Assembly (NCBI RefSeq): GCF_900105385.1
Contig: NZ_LT629772.1
Location: 5,146,001-5,210,000 of the forward strand
Length of the DNA stretch: 64,000 nucleotides
Source: Microlunatus soli
GTDB taxonomy: Bacteria; Actinomycetota; Actinomycetes; Propionibacteriales; Propionibacteriaceae
Direction: 5' to 3'
Below the pieces are notes generated by a model. It ran no database searches. It was not told the DNA's origin and saw nothing but the letters and a program-made list of their open reading frames with translations. The position numbers and the translations under genes were made by a program. Positions 42,205-63,699 of the stretch are shown piece by piece; the first letter of the stretch is position 1; every line of letters begins with the position of its first letter.

Positions 42205-43815
42205 TCAGGCCAGGCCGTTCTCAGCGGTCTCTGCCGGCGCGGTCCGGCCCGACATCCAGGCGGCGAAGAACGGGTCGAGGTCGACCCCGGTATAGGTCTG
42301 TGCCGCGGCCATCCAGTCCTCGACGCTCTCGGTGCCGCCCCGTGCCCAATCCCGGGAGAACCGGAAGAAGGCGTCGTCGCCCATCACGTTGCGCAAGGCC
42401 TGCAGGGTCATCGGGCCGCGGTAGTAGACGGCGTCGAAGAGATGCTGCTTACCGGGGTCGGTCATCGTGACCTCCCAGAAGTCTTGATTGTCCTTCACCC
42501 GGTCGTAGGTGCTGTGCAGGGCATCGTCGGCGCTCGGGCCGCCGGTGCGTTCGGTGCGCAGCCATTCCGAGAACGAGGCGTAGGCCTCACTGTTGAAGAT
42601 GTCGTTCCATTGCTCGAGGGTCACCTTGCCGCCGAACCACATGTGCGCCAGTTCGTGGGTGATCAGATCCGCCCCATCGCCCTGGATGATCGAGCGCGCG
42701 TCGTAGACGGGGCGGGTCGCGGTCTCCAGACCGGCGAACCAGAGCTGATGGGCCGGCACCACGCCGCCGAACTGCTGGTACGGATAGCGGCCCCACATCG
42801 CTTCCAGATCGCGGATGATCTGCGCGCTGGTCGCCAGATTGGCGAATGCCCGTTTGCGGTCGTCGGCCGGCAGCTGGTCCGACACCGCATACACGTACCG
42901 ACGACCGTCTGTGGTGCCCTGTCGGAGCTCGTACTGGCCGATCGACAGCAGTGCCTGGTAGCTGCTCATGGTCTGGTCGCAGACCCAATGCCAGGTGGCG
43001 AAATCCTGGTCGTTGTCGGCGTCGGAGCTGACCAGCCTGCCGTTGCTGATCACTTCCATCCCGGCCGGCACCCGTACCGAGACGTCGAAGCTGGCGGGGT
43101 CGGCCGGGTGGTCGTTGCCCGGATACCACCAGGCCGCACCCTCCGGCTCGCCGGCGGCGGTCACTTCGTCACCGGTGACCCACCACGGGGTGTCCTTGTC
43201 GATCTTGTGTTCGGCCGGCCGGCCACCGTAGGTGATCATCACCTCGAAGGCCGCGTTGTCCGCGATCGGGTCCTTCGGGGTGATCTTGACGTCGGTGGCA
43301 TTGCTCCGTTCGAAATCGGCCTCCTCGTCGTCGACCGTGACGCTGTTGACCGGCAACATCAGATCGACGTAGAAGGACCGCAGCATCTTCGTCGAGCGGG
43401 CAGTGATCACCGCACTGCCGGTGAGGGTCTGACTCTTCGGGATCCATTCCAGGGATACGGTGTAGCGCTGCGCGTCGTAGCCGCCATTGCCGTAGTCGGG
43501 GTAGTAAGGATCGCCGACGCCGGAGCTGCCGTCGTACCGACCGCCGGGGTCGACGGGGGCCGTCGGATCGGATCTGTTCGGGCTGGTGATCCTGCTGATC
43601 AAGGAATCGGGGATCAGCGGAGCCACCACCAGACCGGCGATCATGATCAGCACGGTGGCGATGATCATGATGGTGGAGGGGAGGATGCGGCGACCGGTCC
43701 GGCGGACCGGCTGACTGGCCGGAGGTCCCCAGCTCGGACCAGGGCCTGCCGGCCGGCCGAAGGATCGGGGAGGCCGGTCCGCCGGCGGTCCGGCCGGCGG
43801 CTCAGCGCTCGACAT
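42205..43815 (-). CDS. M1-family metallopeptidase (aminopeptidase N-like), membrane-anchored
   Basis: 536 residues. Residues 1-80 hold a Pro-rich, Arg-containing cytoplasmic tail and one membrane helix (TIMIIATVLIMIAGLVVAPLI), so the enzyme faces outward. The beta-sandwich domain follows (YTVSLEWIPKSQTLTG). The zinc site is HELAHMWFGG, with the third ligand Glu in NDIFNSEAYASFSEW. The catalytic Tyr region is in DAVYYRGPMTLQAL. This is the short, bacterial, ERAP-like M1 form. Its start overlaps the recO stop by 14 bp, so the two are translated from one mRNA. Confidence 0.88.
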   Translation of the reverse strand: MSSAEPPAGPPADRPPRSFGRPAGPGPSWGPPASQPVRRTGRRILPSTIMIIATVLIMIAGLVVAPLIPDSLISRITSPNRSDPTAPVDPGGRYDGSSGVGDPYYPDYGNGGYDAQRYTVSLEWIPKSQTLTGSAVITARSTKMLRSFYVDLMLPVNSVTVDDEEADFERSNATDVKITPKDPIADNAAFEVMITYGGRPAEHKIDKDTPWWVTGDEVTAAGEPEGAAWWYPGNDHPADPASFDVSVRVPAGMEVISNGRLVSSDADNDQDFATWHWVCDQTMSSYQALLSIGQYELRQGTTDGRRYVYAVSDQLPADDRKRAFANLATSAQIIRDLEAMWGRYPYQQFGGVVPAHQLWFAGLETATRPVYDARSIIQGDGADLITHELAHMWFGGKVTLEQWNDIFNSEAYASFSEWLRTERTGGPSADDALHSTYDRVKDNQDFWEVTMTDPGKQHLFDAVYYRGPMTLQALRNVMGDDAFFRFSRDWARGGTESVEDWMAAAQTYTGVDLDPFFAAWMSGRTAPAETAENGLA

Positions 43816-44545
43816 GGGCCAACGACTTGAGATTGCGATCCAGGTGCCAGGTCGCGTACGCCGCGGTCAAGCCGCTGGCCTGCCGCACGGCGAACGGTTC
43901 GACCTCACGGGTGGCAGGCCAGTCGCCCTCCAACAGGGCGCCGAGCAGAGCCAGCGTCTCGGCGGCCGGACGTGCCGAACCCGACGGTCGGCAGATCTCA
44001 CAGACCACGCCGCCGGCCGGAGCCGAGAAGGCCTGGTGTGGCCCGACGGTGCCGCAGCGGGCGCAGGGTCCGAAACTCGGGGCGTAGCCGGCCACCGCCA
44101 GCGACCGCAGCAGGTAGGAGTCCAGGATCATCGACGCCGGCCGGGGGCCGTCACTGGTGGAGCCCTGTTCCAACACCCGCAGCGCACCGACCAGCAGGCG
44201 ATACTGCTGCAGCGCCGGTTCGCGCTCCTCGGCGACGAGCCGGTCGGCCATCTCCAGCATCGCCTCGCCGGCGGTGTAACGCGGGTAGTCGCCGATCAGC
44301 CGCTGGCCGAAGGAGTCGATGCTGACCACCTGGGTGACCACGTCGAGGGTGCGGCCCGCGGCGAGCTGGATGTCGATGTGACTGAACGGCTCCAGCCGGG
44401 CGCCGAACTTGGACGACGTCCGGCGTACGCCCTTTGCCACCGCCCGCAGCTTGCCGTTCTCCCGGGTGAGCATGGTGACGATCCGATCGGCTTCGCCCAA
44501 CTTGTGGGTGCGCAGCACGACGGCCGCATCGCGATAGGTCGGCAC
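43802..44545 (-). CDS. recO: DNA repair protein RecO
   Basis: 247 residues from the GTG at 44545 (VPTYRDAAVVLRTHKLGEAD), the family start; an ATG at 44563 would add six residues, while GGAGG sits too near the GTG to help. The OB-fold N-domain has VAKGVRRTSSKFGARLEPFS. The zinc site is CARCG and CEIC. It loads RecA with RecF/RecR. In actinobacteria recO normally lies downstream of leuA in the same direction; here it is inverted relative to era and uppS. It overlaps the M1 peptidase. Confidence 0.95.
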   Translation of the reverse strand: MPTYRDAAVVLRTHKLGEADRIVTMLTRENGKLRAVAKGVRRTSSKFGARLEPFSHIDIQLAAGRTLDVVTQVVSIDSFGQRLIGDYPRYTAGEAMLEMADRLVAEEREPALQQYRLLVGALRVLEQGSTSDGPRPASMILDSYLLRSLAVAGYAPSFGPCARCGTVGPHQAFSAPAGGVVCEICRPSGSARPAAETLALLGALLEGDWPATREVEPFAVRQASGLTAAYATWHLDRNLKSLAHVER

Positions 44546-45854: not shown

Positions 45855-45950
45855 GACAGCAAGCTTCGTGTGAACCTCGCCGCCTTGAGTGTGTGATCGA
45901 CTTGCTGGGGACGTCGTCCACAACCGTTCAGCCGGTGGATCCCGCGAATT

Positions 45951-46020
45951 CGCGATCTCAGCAGCCGTCCTTGAGTCCACGCACGCTTGGAACGTTCGAA
46001 TGGGCCGCGATGAGATCGCG
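45951..46020. repeat. 70-bp palindromic element, copy 2
   Basis: CGCGATCTCA (45951-45960), 50 bp, TGAGATCGCG (46011-46020): identical arms and spacer length to the copy at 16751. Pairing extends outward to 20 bp (CCCGCGAATT and TATTCGCGGG flanks) with one mismatch. CCGTCC and TCCACGC occur in both interiors. It lies between decayed genes. Confidence 0.75.
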
Positions 46021-46055
46021 TATTCGCGGGGTGCCGGGTGAGCGATCGAGCCGGC

Positions 46056-46403: not shown

Positions 46404-46441
46404 GACGAGATAGTCGACCTCGCCACGGTGGACAGGCTCGG

Positions 46442-46844: not shown

Positions 46845-46856
46845 CGCGGTTGAAGA

Positions 46857-47168: not shown

Positions 47169-47233
47169 TCGCCGAGTATCGCACGGTGAATTCCACTGGC
47201 CGGGCTCGCCGCCGCGACGTACGGTGATCCTCG

Positions 47234-48235: not shown

Positions 48236-48277
48236 AGAACCCGCGACGGTGGTCGTCCCACGGTCTACGTTGAGGTC

Positions 48278-48811: not shown

Positions 48812-48836
48812 TGACACAGGGCCGGCGAGCAGACGG

Positions 48837-50681
48837 TCAGCGGAGGCGGGTCACTCGGACGTAGTCGAAGGCGGACGTGTAGCCGGACCCGGACATCGAG
48901 ACCAATCCGATCTTGGTGTCGGCGGTAGTGTCCTGTCGCCAGGTCGCGCCCTTCACCCAGTCATCACCGTCGAGGCTGCTGAAGGCGGTGTAGCAGGTGG
49001 TCGAGCCGCAGCTGCGCGCGACGAGGCGCAGATAGGTCCAGTCACCGACGGGCCCGACGACGCCGTTTCCGTAGCTGGGGTATCCCGGCTCCGGGTCGAC
49101 GTGCTTGCCGATCTCGGTCTGCCGGGTCGCACCGATCGAGACCGACACCAGCTTCAGGTACGTCGCGTCGCTGTTGTAGATCATCATTCCGCCCTGCACG
49201 TAGTTGTGCACCGTCGTGTCGTCCGGCGTGTTCACCGCGACCTTGGTCTCGACCATGTAGTCCCCGGACGGTGCCTTCTCGGTCAGCACGGACGCCAGCG
49301 TCGAGGCCGGCGGCTGGATGTCGGCGGGCTGGGTCTGCCACCGCAGGCTGCCGCCACCGACGCTGTAGCTGTCGGCGGCAGGTTCCCTGACCCAGCTCCA
49401 GCGGCTGCTCAATTGGCTGCCGCTGAAGTCATCGGACAGGCCCGGGATGGGGCGGCCGGGTTGCGGTTCGTGCAGCGGCTGTGGCTGGTAGGCCTCGCGT
49501 TGGCCGGGCCGGGCGGCCGGGGCCGGTTGTGCCGTGTCCGACGGGCCGCTGCCGGAACGGACCGACGGCCAGCCGTCGACCCAATCGACGGGATCGATCA
49601 GGCCGGGACGCTTGGTGTAGCCGACCGCGTCCTGATAGTAGGGATCGTTCACGTCGATGCCGTGATAGATCATCCAGTCCTGGCCGGCGTCGTCGGTGAG
49701 CATCGTGTTGTGCCCGACGCCGACCCAGCGGTTCCCGTTCTGCGCCACGACCGGGGTGCCACCGACCCGGGGTGCGGTGATGGCACGTCCGGTGGCATCC
49801 CGGAAGGTGCCCAGCAGCGTCTTGGACCGGGCCGCGAAGACGGTGTAGCCGGTGAGCGGACCGTTGCAACAGTTGGTCGAGGAGGCCAGCAGATACCACC
49901 AGGCGCCATGCCGGGTGAGGTAAGCACCCTCGTAGCGGTCGCCGACCGCGAGCCGCTGCTCCGAGGCAGGATCACTGGTGGTTCCGTCCGCGCTCAGCCT
50001 GCGGATCCACAGGCCGCCGCCGAATCCGCCGTACGCGATGTAGTTCTGGCCGTTCTCGGTGACCACCTCGGGGTCGATGGTCGATCGGCGGGAGTCGGTG
50101 CCCGGGATGTTCGACGGCTCGACCACGGGGGTCTGCGAGACGGTGAACGGTCCGGCCGGCGTCGGACCCGTGGCAACGCCGATCGCGGCGCCGGCTCCGG
50201 GCAGATTCGTGTTGGAGACGGCGAAGTAGAGCCGATAGCCGTCTGAGGTCTTGACGATGTCCGGCGCCCAGATGCCGGCACCGGTTGCCGCATACGACGG
50301 GGACGTCGGGAACGAGGCGTGCAGCCAGGTCCAGTGCACCAGGTCGGTGGAGCGATAGATCGGGAGCAGGCCCGGCTCCGGCCCGCCGGGTGCGTCGGTG
50401 CCGCGATCGCTGGTGCAGAAGAGATACCAAGCGGTGTCGGATCCGCTGCCTCGGATGACGTCCGGATCGGCGCAACTGGCGGCGTGGAAGCCGCCGGGCA
50501 GGTTCAGCGTCATCGGATTCGTGTACGTCCCGGGTCGCTGAACCGTCGGGGCGACCTGCGGCTGGGGTGCGGCAGCGGACACCGCGGGATGGGACAACCC
50601 GAAGCCGGCGATCGCGGCCACGGCGGTGAGGATGGCGGCGGCGCGACGGAGTCGGCGCCCGGAACGGGGGAGGATACGCAT
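48837..50681 (-). CDS. Secreted GH43 glycoside hydrolase with C-terminal beta-sandwich
   Basis: 614 residues from the ATG at 50681, with GGAG eight bases upstream. Signal peptide: RRLRRAAAILTAVAAIAGFG, cleavage probably after VSAAAP. The five-bladed propeller domain has CADPDVI (base Asp), STIDPEVVTENG (second Asp) and RYEGAYLTRHG (acid Glu), the GH43 triad. A Pro-rich linker at about 395-425 leads to a second domain of about 190 residues (DDFSGSQLSSRWSWVREPAAD) of GH43 C-terminal/laminin-G type. Arabinan or xylan side chains are the usual targets. It acts outside the cell and is divergent from nothing close; it lies 105 bp beyond the regulator. Confidence 0.9.
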   Translation of the reverse strand: MRILPRSGRRLRRAAAILTAVAAIAGFGLSHPAVSAAAPQPQVAPTVQRPGTYTNPMTLNLPGGFHAASCADPDVIRGSGSDTAWYLFCTSDRGTDAPGGPEPGLLPIYRSTDLVHWTWLHASFPTSPSYAATGAGIWAPDIVKTSDGYRLYFAVSNTNLPGAGAAIGVATGPTPAGPFTVSQTPVVEPSNIPGTDSRRSTIDPEVVTENGQNYIAYGGFGGGLWIRRLSADGTTSDPASEQRLAVGDRYEGAYLTRHGAWWYLLASSTNCCNGPLTGYTVFAARSKTLLGTFRDATGRAITAPRVGGTPVVAQNGNRWVGVGHNTMLTDDAGQDWMIYHGIDVNDPYYQDAVGYTKRPGLIDPVDWVDGWPSVRSGSGPSDTAQPAPAARPGQREAYQPQPLHEPQPGRPIPGLSDDFSGSQLSSRWSWVREPAADSYSVGGGSLRWQTQPADIQPPASTLASVLTEKAPSGDYMVETKVAVNTPDDTTVHNYVQGGMMIYNSDATYLKLVSVSIGATRQTEIGKHVDPEPGYPSYGNGVVGPVGDWTYLRLVARSCGSTTCYTAFSSLDGDDWVKGATWRQDTTADTKIGLVSMSGSGYTSAFDYVRVTRLR

Positions 50682-50786
50682 GCTCAGCTCCAGTGATGAG
50701 TCAAGACGGACCATTAGCGCGCCCTGACGAGCCACCGATGGGCGCGGGTTGAGTCTGGCCCTACCTTCCATCGTTGTAAAGAGGCT

Positions 50787-51509
50787 TCAGGGATCTGGTG
50801 TGGACCTCTGCAGGAGCTCTCGTCGCTGTTCGGCAGCGTTTGTCATGTCCTCGGCGAGGAGCCGGAAGAAGTCACTGGTTCGGCGGAGCCGAGCACCTGC
50901 CGGTGTCGAAGCGCCGAGGATGGCGGTGCCTTCGTCGGCTGCTGTCGCCCACAGCATGATCGACCTGGTGCTGGCCAGCCAGGTGCGATACCAGGCGTCG
51001 TCCTCGATCACGTATCGCTCGCGCCGGGTGCCGCTGTGGCGGTCGCGGGTGATCAGTTCGAGTTGTTCCAGGTAGCCGACGGCCTTGGAGATCGACGCCG
51101 GACTGACCCGGAGGCGTTCGGTGAGCTCCGCGGCAGTGAAGGCGCCGTCGTCGCTGGTGAACAGACAGCCGAACACCTTGGCCGACATCGGCGGCAGCCC
51201 GGTTCGGATCATCAGCGCGGTGAACTCCTCGGTGAAGTCGCCGACCGCCGCCGGATCCCGACCGTACGCCGCCGCTTCCGGTCGCCGCGCCGCCGAACCG
51301 CCCGTTCCCGTGCGTCGCGCTCGTCGCCGGGTCGCCTGCTGCGCGGCCGCGGCTCGATAGCCGTCGGGCCCGCCGTTGCGTTCCAGTTCGCGGTTGATCG
51401 TCGACCGTGGCCGGCCGAGTCGGCGGGCGATCTCGGCCCGGCCGACGCCACGGCGGAGCCAGCTCGCGATCTGTTGTCGATCATGGAGGGTCAGACGACC
51501 GCCGGGCAT
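50787..51509 (-). CDS. GbsR/MarR-type regulator with N-terminal IS30-like HTH
   Basis: 240 residues from the ATG at 51509, six bases after GAGGAG. Residues 3-60 form a helix-turn-helix of IS30 transposase type (RLTLHDRQQIASWLRRGVGR, then AEIARRLGRPRSTINRELERNGG). A basic linker follows. Residues 110-200 are a GbsR/MarR winged helix (MSAKVFGCLFTSDDGAFTAAEL, ASISKAVGYLEQLELI, RDRHSGTRRERYVI). The combination is known in actinobacteria; the ligand is unknown. TTGCAAC repeats upstream may be its own operator and could also control the divergent SDR gene. Confidence 0.85.
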   Translation of the reverse strand: MPGGRLTLHDRQQIASWLRRGVGRAEIARRLGRPRSTINRELERNGGPDGYRAAAAQQATRRRARRTGTGGSAARRPEAAAYGRDPAAVGDFTEEFTALMIRTGLPPMSAKVFGCLFTSDDGAFTAAELTERLRVSPASISKAVGYLEQLELITRDRHSGTRRERYVIEDDAWYRTWLASTRSIMLWATAADEGTAILGASTPAGARLRRTSDFFRLLAEDMTNAAEQRRELLQRSTPDP

Positions 51510-51549
51510 GGCTGGCTCCTCATCTCGAGATGCGTTCATCGACAAGTCA

Positions 51550-51599
51550 TTGCAACAATCTAGCCAGGGCGTGTTGCAACGACCGTTCATCATTGCAAC
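51550..51599. promoter_or_regulatory. Three TTGCAAC repeats between divergent regulator and SDR gene
   Basis: TTGCAAC starts at 51550, 51574 and 51593, all in the same orientation, twice within CATTGCAAC. TTGCAA is itself a palindrome. Position, 40-90 bp upstream of the GbsR/MarR gene, suggests an operator. Confidence 0.55.
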
Positions 51600-51707
51600 G
51601 ATATCGCGTTATTCATCGAGTGATTAGGGCCACGTTCTCTACTGTTGTGATCGGAGATGCGAGTAGCTTTCGCAGCAAGGAAAGATTCTGGAGAAGGGTC
51701 GCGTGAG

Positions 51708-52517
51708 ATGAAGGTTTGTCTGGTCACCGGGGCATCGTCCGGGATCGGGATGGCGACGGCACTCGATCTGTTGGCGGCCGGTCACGTCGTCTACGGCGCC
51801 GCCCGCAGGGTGCAGAAGATGGAGCCGATCACGGCCGCCGGCGGCCACGTCCTCGCGTTGGATGCCCGATCCGACGGCGATCTCGAGCAAGCAGTCGCAA
51901 CGATCATCGCCGAGCAGGGACGCATCGACGTCTTGATCAACAACGCCGGGACGGTGCTGCACGGTGCCGTCGAGGACGTCCCGCTCGATCTTGCCCGCGA
52001 TCAGTTCGAGGTCAACCTCTTCGCGCCGGCTCGACTCGCTCAACTCGTGCTGCCGCAGATGCGCGCACAACGTTCCGGCACGATCATCAACGTGTCCTCG
52101 ATCGGTGGCGAGATCGCGCTACCGCTCGGATCCTGGTACTACGCGGCCAAGCACGCGCTGGAGGCGTTCTCCGACACGCTCCGGATGGAGGTCAAGCCGT
52201 TCGGCATCGACGTGGCGATCATCCAGCCGGGCATCATCCGGACCGAGTTCGAGGATCAGACCTCGGCCCAGATCCTGGAGTTCTCCGGTGACGGCCCCTA
52301 CCGCCAGTTGGCCACGGCGATGGCGAAGAGCGCCGAAGGAGGTCTGGCCGGCGGCTCCGATCCGGCCGTCGTCGCCGAGGTGATCCGAGAGGCGATCGAG
52401 TCCGAACAGCCGCAGACCCGCTACCCGGTCGGCTGGCTGGCCGACCGACTCCTCGAACTCAACCGGACGCTGCCGGACCGCGAGTTCGATGCCATGGTGA
52501 CCCGGGTTGCCGAGTAG
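51708..52517 (+). CDS. Short-chain dehydrogenase/reductase
   Basis: 269 residues from the ATG at 51708, with GGAGAAGG upstream. NAD(P) motif TGASSGIG; INNAG; catalytic Ser in VSSIGGE; and Tyr/Lys in SWYYAAKHALEAF (Y-x-x-x-K). This is a classical SDR; the cofactor is probably NADPH because Ala-Arg-Arg follows the second strand (GAARRVQKM). The substrate is unknown; the family match is to ketoreductases. It is divergent from the GbsR/MarR gene, which probably controls it. Confidence 0.88.
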   Translation: MKVCLVTGASSGIGMATALDLLAAGHVVYGAARRVQKMEPITAAGGHVLALDARSDGDLEQAVATIIAEQGRIDVLINNAGTVLHGAVEDVPLDLARDQFEVNLFAPARLAQLVLPQMRAQRSGTIINVSSIGGEIALPLGSWYYAAKHALEAFSDTLRMEVKPFGIDVAIIQPGIIRTEFEDQTSAQILEFSGDGPYRQLATAMAKSAEGGLAGGSDPAVVAEVIREAIESEQPQTRYPVGWLADRLLELNRTLPDREFDAMVTRVAE

Positions 52518-52585
52518 CGGGCTGGGATCCGTCGCCCCCGTAGCTGAGGCGGTCGTTGCCGCGGACGATCTTGGAGATGTCGCGT

Positions 52586-53335
52586 CTACCAAGGGACGGG
52601 GCCGCTGTCTCGTCGGTAGCCGCCGGTCTCGGTCGATGCGGTGGTAGCGAGCTCGATCACGATCCTGGCCCCCTCGGCGGGAGTGCGGGTCACGTCGGCC
52701 CGCCCGCTGCGACCGAGCGCGGTCGCCGTGGGGCCGGGATCGGCGGCGTTGACGAGGATGCCCTCCTCTCGCAACTGTTTGGCGTACTGGACGGTGATCT
52801 GATTGAGCGCGGCCTTGGACGGCGGATATCCGAGCCATCCAGGCAGACCGCTGAAGTAGTGATCCGGATCGCTCATCAGGGCAAGGGATCCGATGCTGGA
52901 GGAGAGGTTGATGATCCGAGCGCGTTCGGATCGCCGCAGCAGCGGCAGCATGGCCTCGGTGACGGCAACGACACCGAACACGTTCGTCTCGAAGACGGCG
53001 CGGACGGCATCGAGCTCGGCCGTCCCCGCGGTCTGCAGGCTCGGCTCTCCCGGCGTTCCGGCGTTGTTGACCAGCACGTCCAGCCGTCCGGCGCTCCGCT
53101 GCACGCTTGCGGCGGCTCGTTCGATGCTGCCCGGGTCTGTCACGTCGAGCTGTACGTCGCGGACATCCAGCCCCTGCGCTCGCAGTGACGCCGCGCGCTC
53201 CCGGGCGGCATCGGCGTCGCGGGCGCCCAGGAATACCGTCATCCCGGTCCGGGCCAATCCCTCCACTGCGGCATATCCGATGCCGCGGTTGGCGCCGGTG
53301 ATCAGAGCCACGGGGGGAGTCGGTTCTCCAGGCAT
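52586..53335 (-). CDS. Short-chain dehydrogenase/reductase next to a TetR gene
   Basis: 249 residues from the ATG at 53335. NAD(P) motif TGANRGIG; LVNNAG; NLSSSIGSLAL; catalytic Y-x-x-x-K in LGYPPSKAALN. The second-strand stretch GARDADAARE favours NADPH. An Arg-Gly-rich tail (TETGGYRRDSGPVPW) ends it, as in many NADPH-dependent SDRs of the plant carbonyl-reductase-like group. A TTG at 53377 is in frame but would cover the operator. It is divergent from the TetR regulator and probably its target. Confidence 0.88.
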   Translation of the reverse strand: MPGEPTPPVALITGANRGIGYAAVEGLARTGMTVFLGARDADAARERAASLRAQGLDVRDVQLDVTDPGSIERAAASVQRSAGRLDVLVNNAGTPGEPSLQTAGTAELDAVRAVFETNVFGVVAVTEAMLPLLRRSERARIINLSSSIGSLALMSDPDHYFSGLPGWLGYPPSKAALNQITVQYAKQLREEGILVNAADPGPTATALGRSGRADVTRTPAEGARIVIELATTASTETGGYRRDSGPVPW

Positions 53336-53359
53336 AGTCGTTGCCGCCTCTCGGTTCGA

Positions 53360-53378
53360 ATTGGAGGTATCGTCCAAT
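53360..53378. promoter_or_regulatory. Probable TetR operator in the SDR/TetR divergent region
   Basis: ATTGGA - 7 nt - TCCAAT inverted repeat, 25 bp from the SDR ATG and 38 bp from the TetR start. Divergent TetR regulators usually bind such a site and repress both genes. Confidence 0.6.
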
Positions 53379-53415
53379 TGACAGCTTACGGCTTACTTGG
53401 AGGGAAATTCCATCT

Positions 53416-54027
53416 GTGATCGCTTCTGCTTCACGGATCGATGGCCGTCGCCGCCGCGAATCGCTGCTGGATGCCGCGCTGGCGTGCTTCGGCGAGGCGG
53501 GTGTGATGGCGACCGGCATCGAGCAGATCCGTCGGCGCGCGGGTGCCAGCCCGTCGAGCGTCTACCACCATTTCAAGGGTCTTGACGACTTGAGCGCGGC
53601 GCTGCTCCTGCGCACCTTCGAGCGGGCGATCGGCCACATCACTGACCAGGTTCGGAGCACCAGCGTTGCCGCCGACGCGGTCCGCGTCCTGGTCCGCTCG
53701 TATCTGGAATGGGCCTTCGCGCATCCCGACGAGGCGAGGTACATGTACCAGGCGACTGCCGTCGAGCTCAGCGGATCGCGTCAGCACGACGTGCTGCTGG
53801 CCAAGGCGCAGCTCTACGAGCCCCTTTTCGCGCAGCTCGAAGAATTCGCAGTCGAAGGGACGCTGCCGCCATGGCCCGGGTCGGCGATCATTGCCGTCGC
53901 GCTCGGACCCAGCCACGACGTCTGCCGTCAGCTCCTTGCGGGCGGCGACGTCGACACGGACTGGGCACTCGGCGAGCTCCCTGAAGTCGCCTGGCGTTCA
54001 CTAGGGCGCGTCGCTAAATCCGGGTAA
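53416..54027 (+). CDS. TetR-family transcriptional regulator
   Basis: 203 residues from the GTG at 53416, with GGAGGGA 11 bases upstream. The N-terminal HTH has RRESLLDAALACFGEAGVMATG, EQIRRRAGASPSSVYHHFKG (canonical TetR helix 2-3), DDLSAALLLRTFERA. The C-terminal ligand domain resembles TetR_C of the AcrR/LmrA group (YLEWAFAHPDEARYMY). The ligand is unknown. Divergent orientation to an SDR and the palindrome between them suggest control of that SDR. Confidence 0.88.
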   Translation: MIASASRIDGRRRRESLLDAALACFGEAGVMATGIEQIRRRAGASPSSVYHHFKGLDDLSAALLLRTFERAIGHITDQVRSTSVAADAVRVLVRSYLEWAFAHPDEARYMYQATAVELSGSRQHDVLLAKAQLYEPLFAQLEEFAVEGTLPPWPGSAIIAVALGPSHDVCRQLLAGGDVDTDWALGELPEVAWRSLGRVAKSG

Positions 54028-54046
54028 GGGGCAAGGGCAGTCGGTG

Positions 54047-55375
54047 TCACCAGGACGGCTGGGTCCATTCCGGATGAACCCTGCGCATCGCCACACCGTC
54101 GTCACGATCCCGGATCGGCGAGCCCGCCCAACGTTGATGCAAGCGCTGCAACGAATCCCGGTCCAACTCGATCCCCAGACCGGGGGTGCCGGTGACCGGC
54201 AGCTTGCCGTCGGCGAAGACGTGCGGCGTGGTGATCACATCCTCGGTCTGCCACGGCCGGTGAGTGTCGCAGGCATAGCGCAGGGTCGGGATGGTCGAGG
54301 CGACCTGGGTCATCGCGGCCAGGCTGATCCCGAGGTGGGTGTTGGAGTGCATCGACAGGCCGACATCGAAGGCATCGCAGATCGCCGCCAGGTCCTGAGT
54401 GGCGCGCAGGCCGCCCCAGTAGTGGTGATCTGACAGCACCACCTGGACAGCGTCGGTGCGGAACGCTTCGCTGATCTCTTCGGTCGAGGTGACACACATG
54501 TTCGTCGCCAGCGGCAGCGACGTGCCCCGCGCGACCTCGGCCATCTGTGCGGTGCCGGTGGTCGGGTCCTCCAGGTATTCCGCGATCGACTCCAACTCGG
54601 CGGCGACCCGCAGACTGGTCGCTACCGACCAGGCACCGTTGGGATCCAGCCGCACCGGTCGGCCGGGGAACGCTTCGGCCAGAGCCTTCGTCGCGGCGAC
54701 CTCCTGATCGGGCGGGAAGACGCCGCCCTTCAGTTTGAACGAGGTGAAGCCGTAGTCGCGGACCATTCGCCGGGCCTGCTGCACCACCTGATCGGGGTCG
54801 AGTGCAGCGCCCCAGTCGTCGTGCGGGACGTCCGATCCGTAGCCGTCCGGATGCTCGGCCCAGCGGTAGAACAGGTAGGCGCTGAAATCGACGTCGTCGC
54901 GAACCTTGCCGCCGAGCAGCGCGTGCACCGGCAACCCGGCCAGGTGTCCGAGGGCGTCATAGATCGCGACCTCGAACGCCGAGGCGACGCTGCAGGCGAT
55001 CTTGTTCAGGCTTCGCGGTCCGCGCAGACCGCCGGCGTCGACTGCAGCGTCCACTCGCTGCAGCTCGACCGACTCGGTGCGCGCTCGGACCCTGCCCCGC
55101 AGGCCGTTCACCGACAGCGGGGACCCGACAAGTTCGGGGGCGAAGGCCTGCGCGACGGACAGGTAGTCGGTGTCACCGTAGGTCTCGCCGACACCGATCT
55201 CACCGGTGTCGGTCTCCACCTCGATGATCGCGCGCGGTGCGTACGGTGCGTGGACGCCCTGGATGTTCAATAGCGGCGGATCGGCGATCAGGATCGGGGT
55301 CACTCGTACCTGGGTGATCTTGCTGTTGATCTTGGCGCTGATCTCGACGGTGTTCTCAGTCATGATCATCTTCAC
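54047..55375 (-). CDS. gudD: Glucarate dehydratase
   Basis: 442 residues, enolase superfamily. [20 protein letters not shown] is the N-terminal capping domain. FKLKGG carries the catalytic Lys pair; metal ligands are in RLDPNGAW and EYLEDPT, and [16 protein letters not shown] has the His of the MR/glucarate subgroup. It dehydrates D-glucarate or L-idarate to 5-keto-4-deoxyglucarate. It starts (GTG) in the last four bases of the gene encoding the next enzyme, so both are coupled. ATG codons two and four codons downstream are alternatives. Confidence 0.9.
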
Positions 55376-56286
55376 CTGACTTGGTCGATCAAGGCGACCA
55401 GCTCATGGTCGTCGGACGGTCGGAGGTCGATCAGTGGTGGTCGGACCGGGCCGGCGGGACGGCCGACGGCACGCATCCCGGCCTTGACGATACTGACCGC
55501 ATATCCCTTGCCCCGGTTGCGGATCGCGACGTAGGGCAGCACGAAGTCGGTAAGCAGACGATAGACCGTTTCATGATCGTCCTCGGTCACTGCTCGGTAG
55601 AAGTCCAGCGCGAACTCGGGCAGGAAGTTGAAGATCGCGGAGGAGTAGGTGCTCAGTCCGAGCTGCTTGTACGGCAGGGCGAACACCTCTGCGGTCGGCA
55701 GCCCACCGACGTAGATCAGCCGATCCCGCAGTCGGGCATAGATCTGGGTCATCTGTTCCAGATCACCGATACCGTCTTTGAGTCCGATCAGGTTGGGGCA
55801 GTCATCGGCCAGTCGGGCAACGGTCTCGGCGGAGTAGCGGGCGTTGCCGCGGTTGTAGATGATCACGCCCAGTGAGGTCGCCGCACAGACGGCGCGGACG
55901 TGATCAGCAAGCCCGCCCTGCTCGCTCTCGGTGAGATACGGCGGGAACAGTAGGATCCCGTCGGCGCCGGCGGTCTCGGCCGACCGGGCCAGCTCGATCG
56001 CGGTGCCGGTGTCCCGTCCGGATGGGGCGAGGATGGGCAGGCCCGCGGGTGCGGACTGCACCGCCGCCCGGACGACGTCGGTCACGTCGGCCGGGGTCAG
56101 CGAGAAGAACTCTCCGGTGCCGCCGGCGGCGAACAGCCCAGCCACCGGATGATCGGCGAGGTGGGTGATGTTCGCCCGATATCCCTCCTCGTCGAACGAG
56201 TGATCCTGGTTGAAATGCGTCACCGGGAAGGACAGCAGCCCTGTCGGCAGCCGCGCGGCCAGGTCCGCGGGGGCATAGGAGGTCAT
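55372..56286 (-). CDS. kdgD: 5-dehydro-4-deoxyglucarate dehydratase
   Basis: 304 residues from the ATG at 56286. DHDPS/NAL class-I aldolase barrel: [30 protein letters not shown] (active Tyr) and [13 protein letters not shown] (Schiff-base Lys). The GGTGEFFSL form, as opposed to the GTTGE of DapA, marks KDG dehydratase. It dehydrates and decarboxylates 5-keto-4-deoxyglucarate to 2-oxoglutarate semialdehyde. It is followed in the same mRNA by gudD. The final dehydrogenase to 2-oxoglutarate and an uptake gene are not in the window. Confidence 0.9.
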
Positions 56287-56399
56287 GGATCCGACCGTAC
56301 GGACGCCTGTGGTGCACGTCCAACACCGGTTCGGCATGGACTGATGCCGCCCGCGCATCAACCGGTCGCCCTGTCAGTGCCGGCAACCAGGATGGCGAT

Positions 56400-57065
56400 A
56401 TGAGTCGACGGTTCAGCGGTTGGCCGGTCACGGCATTCGACGTCCTCCTGGAACTGGACGGCGATCCGCCCGCGGCAGTGCGCGAGGACTGCCGCGAGGA
56501 CCGTGAGCAGCTGGTCCGGGCACCGATGATCGCGTTGCTGCAAGACCTGGCCGACGCCGACGACGATTACGACGACTTCACCGTCGAGGGATACGTTTCG
56601 CCCTACTACGGGCGATGGCAGCATCAGTACGCGACGATCCGGATCGCCCGATACGTCGCCATCGATCTGGCGTTCGACCTCGACGGCCTCCGGCTGTCCG
56701 CCCGGTGGTGGCCGGCCGACGCCGATCAACGGGACCGATACCGAGCGGCGGTCGACGACAACCGCAGTGGCAGCGAGCTTGCCGACATCGTGGTGACGCT
56801 GCAGCGCCGTGGGTGTCGGATCAGCGGCGACCTCATGAAACGGACCCCGCGAGACTATTGTGCCGATCATCCCCGCGGCGAGCTGTTGCGCCGCCGGTCG
56901 CTCATCTGCGAACTCCCACTCGGTTGTGAGGAATGGCTGCACACGCCGGAAGTCGTCGAGCGGGTCCTGGCCGCAGCGGCGGAGCTGGAACCGCTGACCT
57001 CCTGGCTCGCCACCCACGTCGCTCTTCATCAGCCGGCACGGTCGGGGCGCCGGCTCAATCCGTAG
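56400..57065 (+). CDS. DUF2461-like protein
   Basis: 221 residues. [58 protein letters not shown] and [20 protein letters not shown] match DUF2461 landmarks (F-x-G-x-P-x-x-A-x-x-F, R-x-P-x-x-x-L-L, R-x-A-I/V-D-x-x-x-x-G). The centre, normally FRPYRDxRFSKDKSPYK, is replaced by [18 protein letters not shown], so the member is divergent. The function of the family is unknown. It ends 35 bp before uppS, same direction. Confidence 0.7.
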
Positions 57066-57100
57066 CGCTCGTCCGTCGGCCCGGCGGTAGTCTCGTCGCC

Positions 57101-58279
57101 GTGCCGAGACGAGAACCGAAGAGTCGTCGTTCACCTCGACCTGGGCAGGTCGAGCCACCCAAGCCGCATCCGTCCGGCGCACGGCCGCCGGCCATCCCGG
57201 CCGACAAGCTGCCGCAACATGTCGCAATCGTGATGGACGGCAACGGCCGCTGGGCCAAGGCGCGCAACCTGCCGCGGACCGACGGGCACGCCGCGGGGGA
57301 GGCGTCACTGTTCGACGTGATCGAGGGCGCCATCGAGGTCGGGGTGAAGTATCTGTCGGCCTACGCGTTCTCCACCGAGAACTGGCGCCGGTCGCCCGAC
57401 GAGGTGCGCTGGTTGATGGGCTTCAACCGGGACGTCATCCATCGCCGCCGCGACGAGCTCGACGCGATGGGGGTGAGGATCCGCTGGGCCGGTCGCCGAC
57501 CCCGGTTGTGGCGCAGCGTGATCAACGAACTGGAGTCGGCCGAGGAGCAGTCCGACGGCAATGACGTGCTGACCCTGCAATTCTGTGTGAACTACGGAGG
57601 CCGCGCGGAGATCGTCGATGCGACTCGACGGATCGCTGCCGAGGCAGCTGCCGGCCGGCTCCATCCGGACAAGATCACCGAAGATCGTTTCCGCCGGTTC
57701 CTGGACGAGCCGGAGATTCCCGATGTCGATCTTTTCGTCCGGTCGTCGGGTGAGCAGCGGACCTCGAACTTCCTGCTCTGGCAGTCCGCCTACGCCGAGC
57801 TGGTGTTCCTTGATCAACTCTGGCCGGACTTCGATCGCCGCGACCTGTGGCGGGCGATCGAGCTGTATGCGTCCCGGGAACGTCGCTACGGCGGCGCGAT
57901 CCCGAACGCGACCGGCGACGGCCGGCACGCCGCCGAACAGGCCCAGGCTGCAGCCCTGATCGAGATCTTCAACGCCGCGATCGGCGACGGCGACTGGGCG
58001 GCGTTCCTCGAGCGTTTCGCCGACGATGCGGTGCTGAGCTTCGCCGGGCTGGGCGACGGAGATGGGCCGGGTCCGTTCCGGGGCCGGAACGCGATTGCCA
58101 CGGCGTACCGGGACAATCCGCCGGACGACACCCTGCGGGTGCTGGATTCCCGGCATCAGGAGGGATCATCGGTGATCACCTTCGCCTGGTCCCGTGGCGG
58201 GACCGGGGCGATGCGGCTGCGCTGGGCGCAGGACGGTCGACTGGCCGAACAGCACGTCCGGTTCCATCCCGAACCCTGA
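57101..58279 (+). CDS. uppS: Undecaprenyl diphosphate synthase fused to a C-terminal NTF2/SnoaL-like domain
   Basis: 392 residues from the GTG at 57101; the normal length is about 250-275. Residues 38-270 are a complete cis-prenyltransferase: [20 protein letters not shown] (catalytic Asp46), [35 protein letters not shown] and [10 protein letters not shown]. Residues 283-392 continue in frame as an NTF2/SnoaL-like domain: [57 protein letters not shown]. There is no stop or frameshift between. It makes the C55 lipid carrier for peptidoglycan. The extra domain has no known role here. Confidence 0.93.
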
Positions 58280-58281
58280 GG

Positions 58282-58875
58282 TCAGTGCGGGCGGCGGAGC
58301 AGCCAGTCGATGAAGCTGCGCCGCGGGTAGCGTGCCTTGATCACGCCGGAGGCTACCGAACCGACCACCCGGACCGTGTGGCTGGCCGTGGTCGGGTCGC
58401 GCTGGGCGACTTTGTTGGTGATGGTGCCGCTACCGCTGGTGACGTCGTCCATCACGACGGCCCAGTCGGTGGGGACGACCAGCACGACGCTTCCCGACTT
58501 CGCCGTGGCGTGCACGGTCACCTCCCGTTGCGGGACGCGGGCTCCGGTGAAGTCGATCTTGATCGAACCGGACGTGCACTGTGCGACGATCTCGACCGGA
58601 GCCGTCCAGCTCCCGGTCCGCCGCAACGAGCCGCTCTTGGTGCGCAAGGTCAGCGGTTTGGTCTCCAGCACGCCGGGCTCGAGATCGTGGGTCACCGTGG
58701 CCAGCTCGGCGCGGGTCTTGGCCTGATAGACCGCGGTCAGCCGTTCGTCCAGTTCGGTCAGGTCGAGGCGCCCGTCGGCCACCGCCGTCCGGAGGTGTTC
58801 GGCGGCCGTTTCGCGTTCGGCGTCACTGGCCCGGGCGACCGGCACCGGCGCTGCGCCCTCGGCATCGTGAGTCAT
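58282..58875 (-). CDS. DUF1707 and LiaF-like C-terminal domain protein
   Basis: 197 residues from the ATG at 58875. The DUF1707/SHOCT-like part is ARASDAERETAAEHLRTAVA, DGRLDLTELDERLTAVYQAKT. A beta-rich LiaF/DUF2154-like domain follows (SGSIKIDFTGARVPQREVTV, KSGSVVLVVPTDWAVVM). No membrane helix is present, so it is cytoplasmic or peripheral. The LiaF family relates to cell-envelope stress, which would suit a place beside uppS. It is convergent with uppS, with 2 bp between stops. Confidence 0.85.
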   Translation of the reverse strand: MTHDAEGAAPVPVARASDAERETAAEHLRTAVADGRLDLTELDERLTAVYQAKTRAELATVTHDLEPGVLETKPLTLRTKSGSLRRTGSWTAPVEIVAQCTSGSIKIDFTGARVPQREVTVHATAKSGSVVLVVPTDWAVVMDDVTSGSGTITNKVAQRDPTTASHTVRVVGSVASGVIKARYPRRSFIDWLLRRPH

Positions 58876-58938
58876 CGCCGCCAAGTCTAGAGGGTGAACC
58901 GATTCCTGGCGGGGTAGGACGGATGGCAGGATCGCGGC

Positions 58939-59511
58939 ATGGCAAGCGTGGCGGTCGGTGACTTCGAATTGACCATGGACGAGTTGCGGGTCGTGGCTCG
59001 CTTCGCCACCGAGAGCGCCGAAGAAGTCCTTCCCATCTTCGAGGATGCCGTACCCGGTGATCATCGTCCGCGGTCCGCTGTCGAAGCGGCGTGGGAATTC
59101 ATCAACGGCGCACAGCGGACCAAGCTGCAGCGCGTCACCTCGTTGGAGGCCCATCGAGCCGCGAAGGACGCAACGACAGAGATGGTGGCGTTGGCTGCCC
59201 GTTCCGCCGGCGATGCGGCGTCGGCCGCCTACCTGCACCCGATCGCGAAGGCCAGCCAGGTCGGCCACATCCTGCGAGCCACTGCCAGTGCGGCACGAGT
59301 CGCCGAGCTGAACGCTGCCGATGATCACTCCGCCGGAGAGTCGGTGATCAACCGAGCGGCCGAGCGCGCGACGCCGGTGCTGATTGATGTCCTCTGCCGC
59401 TATCCGGTCGCAACGACAGCCAACAGTCGCGTCGCGCAGCTGATGAGCATGCTGGACGCTGTGCTCAGGGCCGAGCGGGTGTCTGAGGTCCGCGGCACGC
59501 TGGAGGAATGA
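58939..59511 (+). CDS. Imm5-like putative immunity protein
   Basis: 190 residues, mostly helical. ELRVVARFATESAEEVLPIF, EDAVPGDHRPRSAVEAAWEF, AHRAAKDATTEMVALAARSA and SAAYLHPIAKASQVGHILRA follow the Imm5-like pattern (A-x-x-x-L-P-x-F-E-x-x-x-P-x-D-x-R-P-R). Such proteins are often filed as immunity proteins or, wrongly, as SbcC. No polymorphic toxin gene is near. The stop overlaps the start of the DNA polymerase gene by 4 nt, so the two are co-translated. Confidence 0.65.
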   Translation: MASVAVGDFELTMDELRVVARFATESAEEVLPIFEDAVPGDHRPRSAVEAAWEFINGAQRTKLQRVTSLEAHRAAKDATTEMVALAARSAGDAASAAYLHPIAKASQVGHILRATASAARVAELNAADDHSAGESVINRAAERATPVLIDVLCRYPVATTANSRVAQLMSMLDAVLRAERVSEVRGTLEE

Positions 59512-60554
59512 GCCTCCTGCACGCCGATGCGGACTGCTTCTTCGCGTCGGTCGAGCTGCAGCGTCGCCCCGAGTTGGCCGACCGGCCGGTCGCGGTCGCG
59601 ACCCACATCGTGATGTCGGCGACATATCCGGCACGGGCCCGCGGCGTGCGTGGCGCGATGCCGCTTCGGCAGGCGCTCAAGCTGTGCCCCGAACTGGTGG
59701 TGCTACCACCTCAGGCCGACTATCAGTCGGCCGGTGAAGCGTTGATGGGGCTGTTCTGGCGGTTCGCCGTTCAGGTCGAGCCGGGGTCGATGGAGGAGGC
59801 GTTCATCGACCCCGGCGACGCCGACCCGGTGGCCACCGCCGCGGCCATCCGGGCAGCGGCCCGCGACGAGCTCGGGCTGCCGGTGACGGTCGGTGTGGCA
59901 CGGACCAAACTGTTGGCCAAGCTGGCCTCCCGCCGGGCCAAACCCGATGGCCTGCTGGTGATCACCGGGACCGAGGAGGCTCGTCTCCGGGCGACGCTGA
60001 CGATCGACGACCTGTGGGGTGTCGGGCCGACTACGGCCAACCGGCTCGCCGATGCCGGCGTCACCAGGCTCACCGAGCTGGAGGGCTACGACGAGGCTCG
60101 GTTGCGGTCCGTGGTCGGTACGGCGATGGCGCGCCGGCTGCTGTCGATCCGGGACGGCACCGACGACGCGACGGTCCGCCAACTCGGTCCGCGGCGTACG
60201 GTGTCGGCTTCCCGGACCGCGATGCGCCCGTCGAGTCGCTGGGCCGACATCCAAGCTCACGCCGACGGCGTGATCGACCTGGCGTTGCAGCGGCTCGCGG
60301 AGTCGCACGACGGGCAGGCCGTCACCCACAGGATCGACGTGCAGGTGACCTACGCCGACCGCGGTCAGTGGAGCACCGAGCGCAGGTTGCCGACCGCCAC
60401 CCGTGATCGGAATGTGCTGCGCCGACACTGCCGGGAGATGATCACGTCCAGTGGTGTCCAGGCGGCCGACCGGCCGGTGTTGTTGATCATGGTCGCGTTC
60501 CGGTTGACCGGCGTCTCGGGAAGTCGGCAGCAAAACGCCCTACCGCTGTTCTGA
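59508..60554 (+). CDS. dinB: Y-family DNA polymerase IV with altered catalytic motif
   Basis: 348 residues. The first catalytic Asp (D7) is in HADADCFFASVE. Palm motif S-x-D-E reads GSMEEAFID (E96-E97), so the Asp is replaced by Glu. The finger region ATYPARARGVRGAMPLRQA is unusual but in place. Helix-hairpin-helix (DLWGVGPTTANRLADAGVTR) and the little-finger domain follow. The extreme C-terminus QQNALPLF is a beta-clamp-binding motif. It is a translesion polymerase; activity may be altered. It is coupled to the Imm5-like gene. Confidence 0.88.
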   Translation: MSLLHADADCFFASVELQRRPELADRPVAVATHIVMSATYPARARGVRGAMPLRQALKLCPELVVLPPQADYQSAGEALMGLFWRFAVQVEPGSMEEAFIDPGDADPVATAAAIRAAARDELGLPVTVGVARTKLLAKLASRRAKPDGLLVITGTEEARLRATLTIDDLWGVGPTTANRLADAGVTRLTELEGYDEARLRSVVGTAMARRLLSIRDGTDDATVRQLGPRRTVSASRTAMRPSSRWADIQAHADGVIDLALQRLAESHDGQAVTHRIDVQVTYADRGQWSTERRLPTATRDRNVLRRHCREMITSSGVQAADRPVLLIMVAFRLTGVSGSRQQNALPLF

Positions 60555-60644: not shown

Positions 60645-61157
60645 ATGATCAACTATGTCCTCGGCGCGCCCGGCTCCGGCAAGAGTCTGATCATCCCGAG
60701 GCTGCGTCGACTGATGCCCGACCGGGTGGTGCTGGATTGGGATGCCCTTATGGAGCCGGCCGGCGACCTCGCCGGCGCTCCGATCCCTCAGACCCCGCGG
60801 ACCTGGGAACCCTACGGGCGTCTGGTCCGGACCGTCGTCGACGCGATCCTTCCGGTGGATCTGGTGCTGCTCGGAGTCTGCACCCCGGCCGAGCTGGCCG
60901 ATTGGCCCACGGGCTCGTGGCTCCTGTTGGACTGTTCCGACGAGGTACGTCGGCAGCGGCTGACTGCGCGCAACGAACCAGATGACATCGACGACGTGCT
61001 GCGCGATGCCGCCAACTACCGGGCACTCGGCCTGCCGGTCGTCGACACGACCTACCTCTCGCCGGACGAGGTAGCCACCTCGGTGGTCGACAGGACGAGT
61101 CGAGCGGCACCGACGTTCAGAAGGGACCAGCAGGTGCCGAAGATCTCGAGCTCGTGA
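60645..61157 (+). CDS. P-loop kinase-like ATPase
   Basis: 170 residues. Walker A is LGAPGSGKSLI at residues 6-16; a Walker-B/DxD region VVLDWDALMEP comes early, as in small AAA/shikimate-kinase-like proteins. LLLDCSDEVRRQRLTARNEP is the LID-like region with Arg residues, and the last helix is PDEVATSVVDRTSR. The last dozen residues (DQQVPKISSS) are encoded by DNA antisense to the fur remnant, so the tail is probably new and not part of the original fold. The substrate is unknown. Confidence 0.75.
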   Translation: MINYVLGAPGSGKSLIIPRLRRLMPDRVVLDWDALMEPAGDLAGAPIPQTPRTWEPYGRLVRTVVDAILPVDLVLLGVCTPAELADWPTGSWLLLDCSDEVRRQRLTARNEPDDIDDVLRDAANYRALGLPVVDTTYLSPDEVATSVVDRTSRAAPTFRRDQQVPKISSS

Positions 61158-61235
61158 TCGACGTCGCGGAAGCCGTGCGCGGGTGGCGATCGAGGTCGCC
61201 CACTTCTCCACGGTCGGCTCAACGACCTCATCATC
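61126..61235 (-). pseudogene. Truncated, frameshifted duplicate of the fur/zur 3' end
   Basis: On the minus strand the DNA reads TVEKWATSIAT, then, in a shifted frame, HGFRDVDHELEIFGTCWS. The intact gene at 63289-63699 ends TVEKWANSIATEHGFRDVNH and ELEIFGTCSSC. About 105 bp align at high identity (61126-61229 with 63296-63400), with one extra G in the run near 61180 that breaks the frame. No start, no HTH. It is a partial segmental copy lying in the same orientation about 2.2 kb from its source. Confidence 0.85.
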
Positions 61236-61437: not shown

Positions 61438-61490
61438 AGGGCGAGGAATGCTGCTGGGAGTTCTTCGCTCGTGACGTGAAGGAGAACTCC

Positions 61491-62702
61491 ATGACCACGC
61501 CCGACCAGGTCCTCGACCATTTGAGTCGAACAACCGATCAGATCTTCGGACGTGACGACTTTCGGGACCGGCTCGCTTCCGGTCGACGGCTGCGGATCAA
61601 GTTCGGCGTCGACTGCACGGCACCCGATCTGCATCTCGGGCACGCGGTGAACCTGTGGATGATGCGTTACCTGCAGGATCTCGGTCATGTCGTGGTGTTC
61701 CTGCTGGGCGATACGACGACGCGGATCGGAGACCCGACCGGCCGAAACACGACCCGTCCGGTGCTGACCGAGGACGAGATCGACCGAAACGCCAGCGCCT
61801 TCCTGGAGCAGGTGACCCTGGTGCTTCGCAACGACCCCGACGTGCTGGAGATCCGGCGCAACTCCGAGTGGTACGACCCCATGACAATCACCGATCTGAT
61901 CGGGCAGCTCAGCATGGTGACGCACAGCGAGTTGCTGGCCCGGGACATGTTCCAGAAGCGACTGCGGGACCATCGTGAAATCGCCATGCATGAGTTGATC
62001 TACCCGGTACTGCAGGGCTACGACAGCGTTGCCTTGAAATCAGACGTCACCATCGTCGGCTCCGACCAATTGTTCAACGAAACGATGGGACGGAACCTGC
62101 AGTCCAAGCACGGACAGGTTCCGCAGACCGTCATCACCAGCATGATCACTCCCGGCCTGGACGGCGGTTCCAAGCAATCGAAGTCGCTGAACAACTACGT
62201 CGGACTAGCGCGGAGCGCCGATGAACAGTTCGGTCGCCTGATGACCCTCAACGACGAGCTGATCGAGACCTGGGCGACGGTCTACACCGAGCTTCCCCGT
62301 GAGCAGGTCGAAGACCTGGCTCGCCGGGCCGCGCGCGGCGGCGGAAGCGCACGCGACGCGAAGCTCGAGCTTGCCGAGGCGATCGTGACCAGGTACCACG
62401 GCCTGCTCGCAGCGGCACGTTCGCGGCGGACGTTCCTTGATGTCTTCTCGGAGCGCAGGCTGCCGGAAAGCATTCCCGAACTGTCCGTCACCGATCTGCG
62501 GCCGACGATGCTGGACTTGGTGGCTGCGGCACGCCCGGACCTGACCCGGTCCGCCGTCCGCCGTTTGATCGTCGGCGGTGGAGTCCGCCTCGATGGCCGA
62601 CAGCATCAGGACCCGCTTGCTCAGGTCGCAGTGGCGACCGGCGCAGTCCTACAGATCGGTAGACGCCGCTGGCACCGGTTGAAGATCGAACACGGCGAGT
62701 GA
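61491..62702 (+). CDS. tyrS: Tyrosyl-tRNA synthetase
   Basis: 403 residues from the ATG at 61491, with AAGGAG six bases upstream; an in-frame GTG five codons earlier overlaps that site and is rejected. HLGH (the HIGH motif) is at about 48-51, and GGSKQSKSLNNYVG is the KMSKS loop with Gln for Met. QGYDSVALKSDVTIVGSDQL is the tyrosine/ATP pocket. An S4 RNA-binding domain at about 340-400 (SAVRRLIVGGGVRLDGRQ) follows. KQSKS places it near the TyrZ-like branch, so a second tyrS may exist. An attenuator precedes it. Confidence 0.93.
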   Translation: MTTPDQVLDHLSRTTDQIFGRDDFRDRLASGRRLRIKFGVDCTAPDLHLGHAVNLWMMRYLQDLGHVVVFLLGDTTTRIGDPTGRNTTRPVLTEDEIDRNASAFLEQVTLVLRNDPDVLEIRRNSEWYDPMTITDLIGQLSMVTHSELLARDMFQKRLRDHREIAMHELIYPVLQGYDSVALKSDVTIVGSDQLFNETMGRNLQSKHGQVPQTVITSMITPGLDGGSKQSKSLNNYVGLARSADEQFGRLMTLNDELIETWATVYTELPREQVEDLARRAARGGGSARDAKLELAEAIVTRYHGLLAAARSRRTFLDVFSERRLPESIPELSVTDLRPTMLDLVAAARPDLTRSAVRRLIVGGGVRLDGRQHQDPLAQVAVATGAVLQIGRRRWHRLKIEHGE

Positions 62703-63288: not shown

Positions 63289-63699
63289 TCAGCAGGACGA
63301 GCAGGTACCGAAGATCTCGAGCTCGTGGTTGACGTCGCGGAAACCGTGCTCGGTGGCGATCGAGTTGGCCCATTTCTCCACGGTCGGGCCACTGACCTCG
63401 ACCGTACGGCCACAGCTGCGGCAGACCAGGTGGTGATGGTGACCGCCGGAACAACGCCGGTAGCTCATCTCGCCGTCGACGTTGCGGATCGCATCCAGCT
63501 CACCGCTGTCGGTCATCGACTGCAAGGTCCGGTAGACGGTGGTCAACCCGACGCGTTCCTCGGAGTGCCGGAGCTCGTCGTGGATCTGCTGGGCGCTGCG
63601 GAAGTCCGAGGCGGCGTTCAGGATCTTGTCGACGGCGGCCCGCTGCCTGGTCCGACGTTGCGGTGCTGCCGACTCGGGTTCTCTGATCTGGTTCATCAT
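63289..63699 (-). CDS. zur: Fur-family regulator, probably Zur
   Basis: 136 residues. HTH: RTRQRAAVDKILNAASDFRS, AQQIHDELRH and GLTTVYRTLQSM. Metal region: RRCSGGHHHHLVCRSCGRTV, with the structural CxxC, and FGTCSSC, the second CxxC at the end. The adjacent zinc ABC permease gene makes zinc (Zur) more likely than iron. It would repress zinc uptake with Zn bound. It starts 8 bp after the permease stop, in one operon. A decayed partial copy is at 61126. Confidence 0.88.
   Translation of the reverse strand: MMNQIREPESAAPQRRTRQRAAVDKILNAASDFRSAQQIHDELRHSEERVGLTTVYRTLQSMTDSGELDAIRNVDGEMSYRRCSGGHHHHLVCRSCGRTVEVSGPTVEKWANSIATEHGFRDVNHELEIFGTCSSC

Follow-up and report, generated by a model that had tools for sequence, protein, structure and literature searches.

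A cis-prenyltransferase of Microlunatus soli joined in frame to a C-terminal NTF2/SnoaL domain

Introduction

UppS-type enzymes are the source of the lipid carrier used in cell-wall synthesis and are drug targets. To our knowledge, little is known about the post-translational control of their output. In Microlunatus soli, a gene of this type continues without a stop codon into a second domain of the NTF2/SnoaL class, which raises the question as to where this domain came from, whether it is maintained, and what it may do for the enzyme that carries it. We examined the gene within a 64,000-nucleotide stretch of the genome (contig NZ_LT629772.1), hereafter the window, starting from a preliminary description made from the sequence alone. 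The genome of the window is denoted G000, and G006, G007, and G012 are relatives of the same genus. The features discussed below are as follows.

57101..58279, + strand: fused gene, cis-prenyltransferase (UppS type) with a C-terminal NTF2/SnoaL domain; 392 amino acids, putative GTG start
57101..57892, + strand: cis-prenyltransferase part, residues 1-264 (Pfam match 44-264)
57884-57892, + strand: RXG motif R262-Y263-G264, at the end of the cis-prenyltransferase part
57893..57925, + strand: tether, residues 265-275, with limits inferred from those of the domains
57926..58276, + strand: NTF2/SnoaL domain, residues 276-392, 117 codons; absent en bloc from G006
58277..58279, + strand: stop codon of the fused gene, where homology with the DNA behind the unfused uppS of G006 restarts
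58282..58950, - strand: DUF1707 protein, putative start; aligns with the DNA directly behind the unfused uppS of G006
43805..44545, - strand: recO, the usual divergent neighbor of uppS in the genus
63292..63681, - strand: fur-type regulator, close downstream of uppS in several members of the genus

A UppS-type enzyme with an additional domain

The frame at 57101-58279 is open from end to end, both of its parts match Pfam families, and G007 carries the same fusion, which confirms the in-frame joining of UppS and an NTF2/SnoaL domain reported in the preliminary description. That the fusion is an artefact of assembly or sequencing is scarcely conceivable, as its presence in G007, an independent genome, already counts as refuting this explanation, and the genome of the window is a single contig rated 100% complete. 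We found no point in support of such an artefact.

The enzyme part matches PF01255 (UppS) over the full profile (positions 1-219 of 219, residues 44-264; 259 bits vs a gathering score of 27, E 4e-77). It passes the cut-off of the NCBIfam isoprenyl transferase model PRK14829 (413.4 vs 372 bits) and stays below that of PRK14827, the model of the mycobacterial-type decaprenyl diphosphate synthase (410.6 vs 535 bits). As the profile scores put the enzyme nearer to the mycobacterial-type long-chain group (PRK14829, PRK14827) than to E. coli UppS, it may make a C50 product instead of C55. The closest solved structures are 7cpm/7cpn and those of M. tuberculosis Rv2361c (2vg2, 6ime), with E 4e-128 to 1e-115 and a match across the whole UppS part. 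The catalytic Asp (D46), the Ser/Asn shuttle (S91, N94), and the C-terminal RXG motif (R262-Y263-G264) are all present and can be aligned with Rv2361c, and these residues, Y263 excepted, are invariant across 27 aligned cis-prenyltransferase sequences. However, Rv2361c ends two residues past the RXG motif, whereas the fused protein has 128 more, most of which form the folded NTF2/SnoaL domain.

Three cis-prenyltransferases were found in the genome of the window, and the fused one is the only one that fits PRK14829. The second belongs to PRK14828 (364 vs 348 bits); the third comes closest to the same group but stays under its cut-off. As the only PRK14829 member found in this genome, the fused gene is the best candidate there for the housekeeping long-chain enzyme, and it is presumably essential. 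The enzyme part has kept its active-site and RXG residues, and no other member of its subfamily turned up in the genome, so that, to judge from its sequence, it should still be active. The extra cis-prenyltransferase of this genome (L002) is divergent and PRK14828-like. Three cis-prenyltransferase places each were counted in G000, G004, G006, G007, G009, and G012, a group that takes in both fused species and their closest unfused relatives; the other 14 genomes of the genus have one or two.

The C-terminal part had been assigned to the NTF2/SnoaL class, and a Pfam check bears this out. With the full protein as query, both SnoaL_4 (30.2 bits vs a gathering score of 24, E 5e-7) and SnoaL_2 (27.8 vs 27 bits, E 4e-6) score above the gathering threshold, with SnoaL matches spanning residues 279-372, and the alpha+beta cone fold of the NTF2/SnoaL superfamily was recognized. 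Sequence identity to ketosteroid isomerase (KSI) and to the NTF2 fold is 9-23%, and the sigma factor model TIGR02957 is matched weakly (E 0.017, far under its cut-off). In a full-length predicted model built on an alignment of 24 rows, the UppS part is poor (mean pLDDT 70), and residues 261-271 are below 50.

Distribution of the fusion and of the domain

The whole-protein search covered 57 genomes, 20 from the genus, 13 from other genera of the family, and 24 from the order. Two of them, the genome of the window and G007, have a single open match that spans both parts. The scan of UppS homologues suggested in the preliminary description thus recovered the same fusion once more, but confined it to two species among the genomes searched.

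As for the domain alone, it is present in three of the 20 genus genomes, the third copy being a weaker one (E 1e-11) in Microlunatus parietis (G009), far from the uppS of that genome. It was found in 2 of 147 genomes of the family, in 7 of 394 of the class at E 0.001 (several of these matches being weak), and by profile search in 59 of 391 of the order, 27 of them weaker than E 1e-10. None of 18 loci encoding relatives of the domain has UppS within about 10 kb, and no open match joining UppS and the domain occurs in 26 genomes picked from the class and order matches, some of which are of the same species as some of the 18 loci. The apparent UppS matches that reach furthest into the domain in these genomes, those of G597, G576, and G196, have stops there and no homology to the domain, and were rejected as fusions. 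No relative was found on viral contigs. It had been proposed that homologues with the second domain as a separate gene would speak against the fusion. The domain is indeed unjoined to UppS in the 18 loci and the 26 genomes, yet this shows the source of the domain and does not undo the fusion, which stands.

The preliminary description knew of no UppS with this architecture, and this agrees with our literature search, as the two search terms never occurred in one paper among the open-licence full texts searched. Both halves belong to known families; what is new is their combination and its place beside the RXG motif.

Origin of the fused gene

The empty site is visible in G006, which shares 92.7% identity with the window in the UppS core. 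Its DNA aligns up to window position 57925 and again from 58275 into the DUF1707 gene (72% over 601 columns). The block without counterpart in G006 measures about 350 bases (~117 codons), with an uncertainty of one or two codons at its ends; the G006 tail is one codon longer, which gives a net difference of 116 codons, and the stop codons of the two genes lie no more than 2 bases apart in the alignment. The DNA of the two fused species can be aligned throughout, linker included, with the same junction (74.5% over 1273 columns).

A tree of 26 domains groups the two fused copies as sisters (ultrafast bootstrap 95) among Kribbella proteins, apart from the M. parietis copy; the placement of the pair beside any single Kribbella group has weak support. 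Free-standing NTF2/SnoaL proteins of Kribbella, Actinoplanes, and their relatives show 33-49% identity to the fused domain and share its conserved positions, but they are encoded by separate genes, have about 105 residues, and stand among varied neighbors. At the Kribbella locus L044, the domain gene follows what we take to be a RarA-like ATPase gene and precedes a gene that we read as alaS. At eight other loci, where 10 of 16 flanking frames were scanned, the neighbors differ from locus to locus and point to no common pathway; among them are an MMPL-family transporter, an ABC transporter ATPase, and members of the AHSA1, DinB_2, and flavin reductase families.

Within the genus, recO is close to and divergent from uppS at 14 of 20 loci (in about 1.5 kb of flank). 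The fur gene follows uppS on the opposite strand after 16-60 bases at five of the 20 (G002, G005, G010, G012, and G015), lies no more than 670 bases from it in three more (G001, G006, and G013), and was not seen in the flanks of the remaining genus loci. The order recO-uppS-fur is likely ancestral. In the window, other genes separate uppS both from recO (43805-44545) and from fur (63292-63681); viewed against this order, the fused gene is best read as the vertically inherited uppS. We propose that an intact, vertically inherited long-chain cis-prenyltransferase would have gained at its C-terminus a free-standing NTF2/SnoaL protein of the actinobacterial type in a Microlunatus lineage, a capture that, from the sequence comparisons, probably happened once. 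The locus would thus present a domain capture caught in a presumably essential gene, with the empty site still visible.

The domain is absent from G006 and from G012, which both the UppS and the RecO tree place as sister to G007; it is therefore dispensable on the scale of lineages. The UppS protein tree and the sites split two against two pair G000 with G006 and G007 with G012 (nine protein sites in favor, two for G000 with G007); RecO alone and UppS combined with RecO place G006 outside the other three. As G012 is the sister of G007 in all trees, the domain would either have been lost in G012 or the end of its uppS would have been replaced or transferred by recombination. In G012, fur lies 16 bases behind uppS, much as in G005, G010, and G015 (16-33 bases), a spacing that fits a replacement or a retained old state as well as a deletion. 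Decayed remnants of the domain were sought by tblastn (E up to 5) in seven unfused relatives, in stretches of 20 kb, which produced many chance matches. The best among the matches listed (E 3e-4 and 5e-4) are kilobases from uppS, and near uppS nothing better than E 0.002 was found among them.

Possible constraint on the added domain

The absence of the domain from two of the closest relatives and its rarity (2 of 20 genus genomes carry the fusion) would be expected of a tolerated appendage, that is, an independently folding domain on a flexible tether that has little or no effect on the enzyme, persists since its fold keeps it from aggregating, and is occasionally lost. The NG86 omega between the two fused species also favors this explanation, being 0.61 (95% interval 0.36-1.01) for the domain vs 0.10 (0.06-0.15) for UppS at saturated synonymous sites; their identity, 53% in the domain vs 87% in UppS, speaks against the functional module preferred below. 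Since an omega of 0.61 could mean relaxation, the contrast between domain and UppS was also measured in Kribbella, which has the domain as a separate gene. The log-distance ratio, domain over UppS, is 4.66 for the fused pair and has a median of 4.77 in Kribbella (5-95%: 3.47-7.01; 98 of 120 pairs from 16 genomes, 22 pairs with UppS identity of at least 0.97 being left out). The fused domain therefore changes about as fast as its free-standing relatives and no faster, a match that comes from one fused pair and that we consider the strongest evidence that the domain is maintained.

The pattern of conservation also speaks against an idle appendage. In 24 non-fused relatives, 22 positions reach a conservation of at least 85%. 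Of these, 21 are kept in G007, which departs at A60 (Gly), and 19 in G000, which departs at H11 (Leu), V19 (Ile), and P47 (Gly, beside a four-residue insertion); the three losses and the insertion in G000 count against the functional module preferred below. The domain retains most of the conserved aromatic and Gly/Pro positions of its own family, and it is open and complete in both genomes despite 13% divergence in UppS. On balance, such an appendage is possible but doubtful. We also considered dating the joint descent of both parts by NG86 dS between the fused species (0.76 for UppS and 0.64 for the domain), but this argument was dropped because dS is saturated, free-standing pairs across taxonomic families having similar or smaller values.

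Possible role of the domain

Proteins of the SnoaL/KSI fold are often enzymes, and the set of residues conserved in the family suggests a pocket, so the protein could be bifunctional, with the SnoaL domain catalyzing its own reaction on a small molecule related to the UppS product. However, the positions equivalent to Tyr16 and Asp40 of KSI, which along with Asp103 we take to be its catalytic residues (P. putida numbering), are Phe in nearly all members of the family, including the fused domain (F290 and F314); the alignments stop short of Asp103. This makes a second catalytic activity very unlikely. Proteins of the NTF2/KSI fold are usually dimers, which suggests another role, namely that of an oligomerisation device in which the NTF2-type domains pair through their sheets and turn UppS dimers into tetramers. 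According to extracts of PMC7573591, the C-terminal helix-turn-helix of human DHDDS builds a dimer of heterodimers. Such a device, which overlaps with the partner-binding form of the explanation preferred below and is not exclusive of it, seems quite unlikely.

The position of the domain next to the RXG motif provides a further clue. In Rv2361c and its relatives, extracts of PMC6450523 describe the C-terminal RXG motif as catalytically important and the substrate sites as lying near the dimer interface. In the human enzyme, NgBR sends its RXG tail across the dimer interface and into the active site; transverse contacts of this kind are reported for homodimeric enzymes as well (PMC7573591, in extract). 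As the RXG tail of one subunit in this family completes the active site of its partner, a tether of about 11 residues should leave the domain hanging at the mouth of that site. Human DHDDS, as described in the same extracts, resembles the fused protein in having an extra C-terminal domain after the last cis-prenyltransferase helix. However, that domain is a helix-turn-helix without an NTF2 fold, which comes straight after the helix and is described as incompatible with the transverse tail network, and the RXG motif is supplied by NgBR, whereas the fused protein has kept its own. ECF41 sigma factors also carry a SnoaL-like domain at the C-terminus of a working protein, where such extensions are inhibitory modules (PMC8999054, in extract); as the partner there is an ECF sigma factor and not a cis-prenyltransferase, the principle alone is comparable.

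On the basis of the RXG-tail geometry and of the analogy with the inhibitory SnoaL modules of ECF41 factors, we infer with moderate confidence a ligand- or partner-responsive module; the poor UppS part of the full-length model and the fact that G006 and G012 do without the domain weigh on this confidence. A built-in control module is possible given that a related species has the fusion too and most of the family-conserved residues are kept, and binding of a lipid, ligand, or partner by the added domain is plausible. In the explanation that we prefer, a captured, non-catalytic SnoaL module on board a working enzyme would bind a small hydrophobic ligand or a partner and thereby tune or organize the enzyme; taken as a whole, we give this reading an even chance. 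A more specific version, in which the domain is a ligand sensor whose binding moves the RXG tail into or out of the partner's active site, thereby determining the rate or the chain length of carrier-lipid synthesis, is unlikely; if true, it would amount to direct allosteric control of cell-wall supply, absent from UppS enzymes without the domain. The preferred reading would place a candidate regulatory domain at the partner active site of a carrier-lipid enzyme, and the unfused natural relatives in G012 and G006, which are 87-93% identical to the fused enzyme in the enzyme part, offer a ready comparison with and without the domain.

Other features of the locus

A search of 56300-58700 for a promoter or terminator consensus found none. 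About 12.5 kb separate recO from uppS in the window (44545-57101), and the stretch examined, 53341-57065, contains genes of the mandelate racemase/enolase type and of the DHDPS family, together with a TetR regulator and a DUF2461 gene. Downstream, an Imm5-like putative immunity protein (58939-59511, + strand; PF21805, E 7e-16) is encoded directly before a Y-family polymerase gene (59508-60554). A partial second copy of the 3' end of fur (61124-61229, - strand; ~106 bp at 87% identity, with a one-base shift) lies ~2.17 kb before the intact fur and has the appearance of a scar left by an insertion or duplication. Between the two copies, 61476-62702 (+ strand) encodes what we read as a tyrosyl-tRNA synthetase; as its sole other match in the genome is distant (28% identity), it is probably a second, divergent type of this enzyme.
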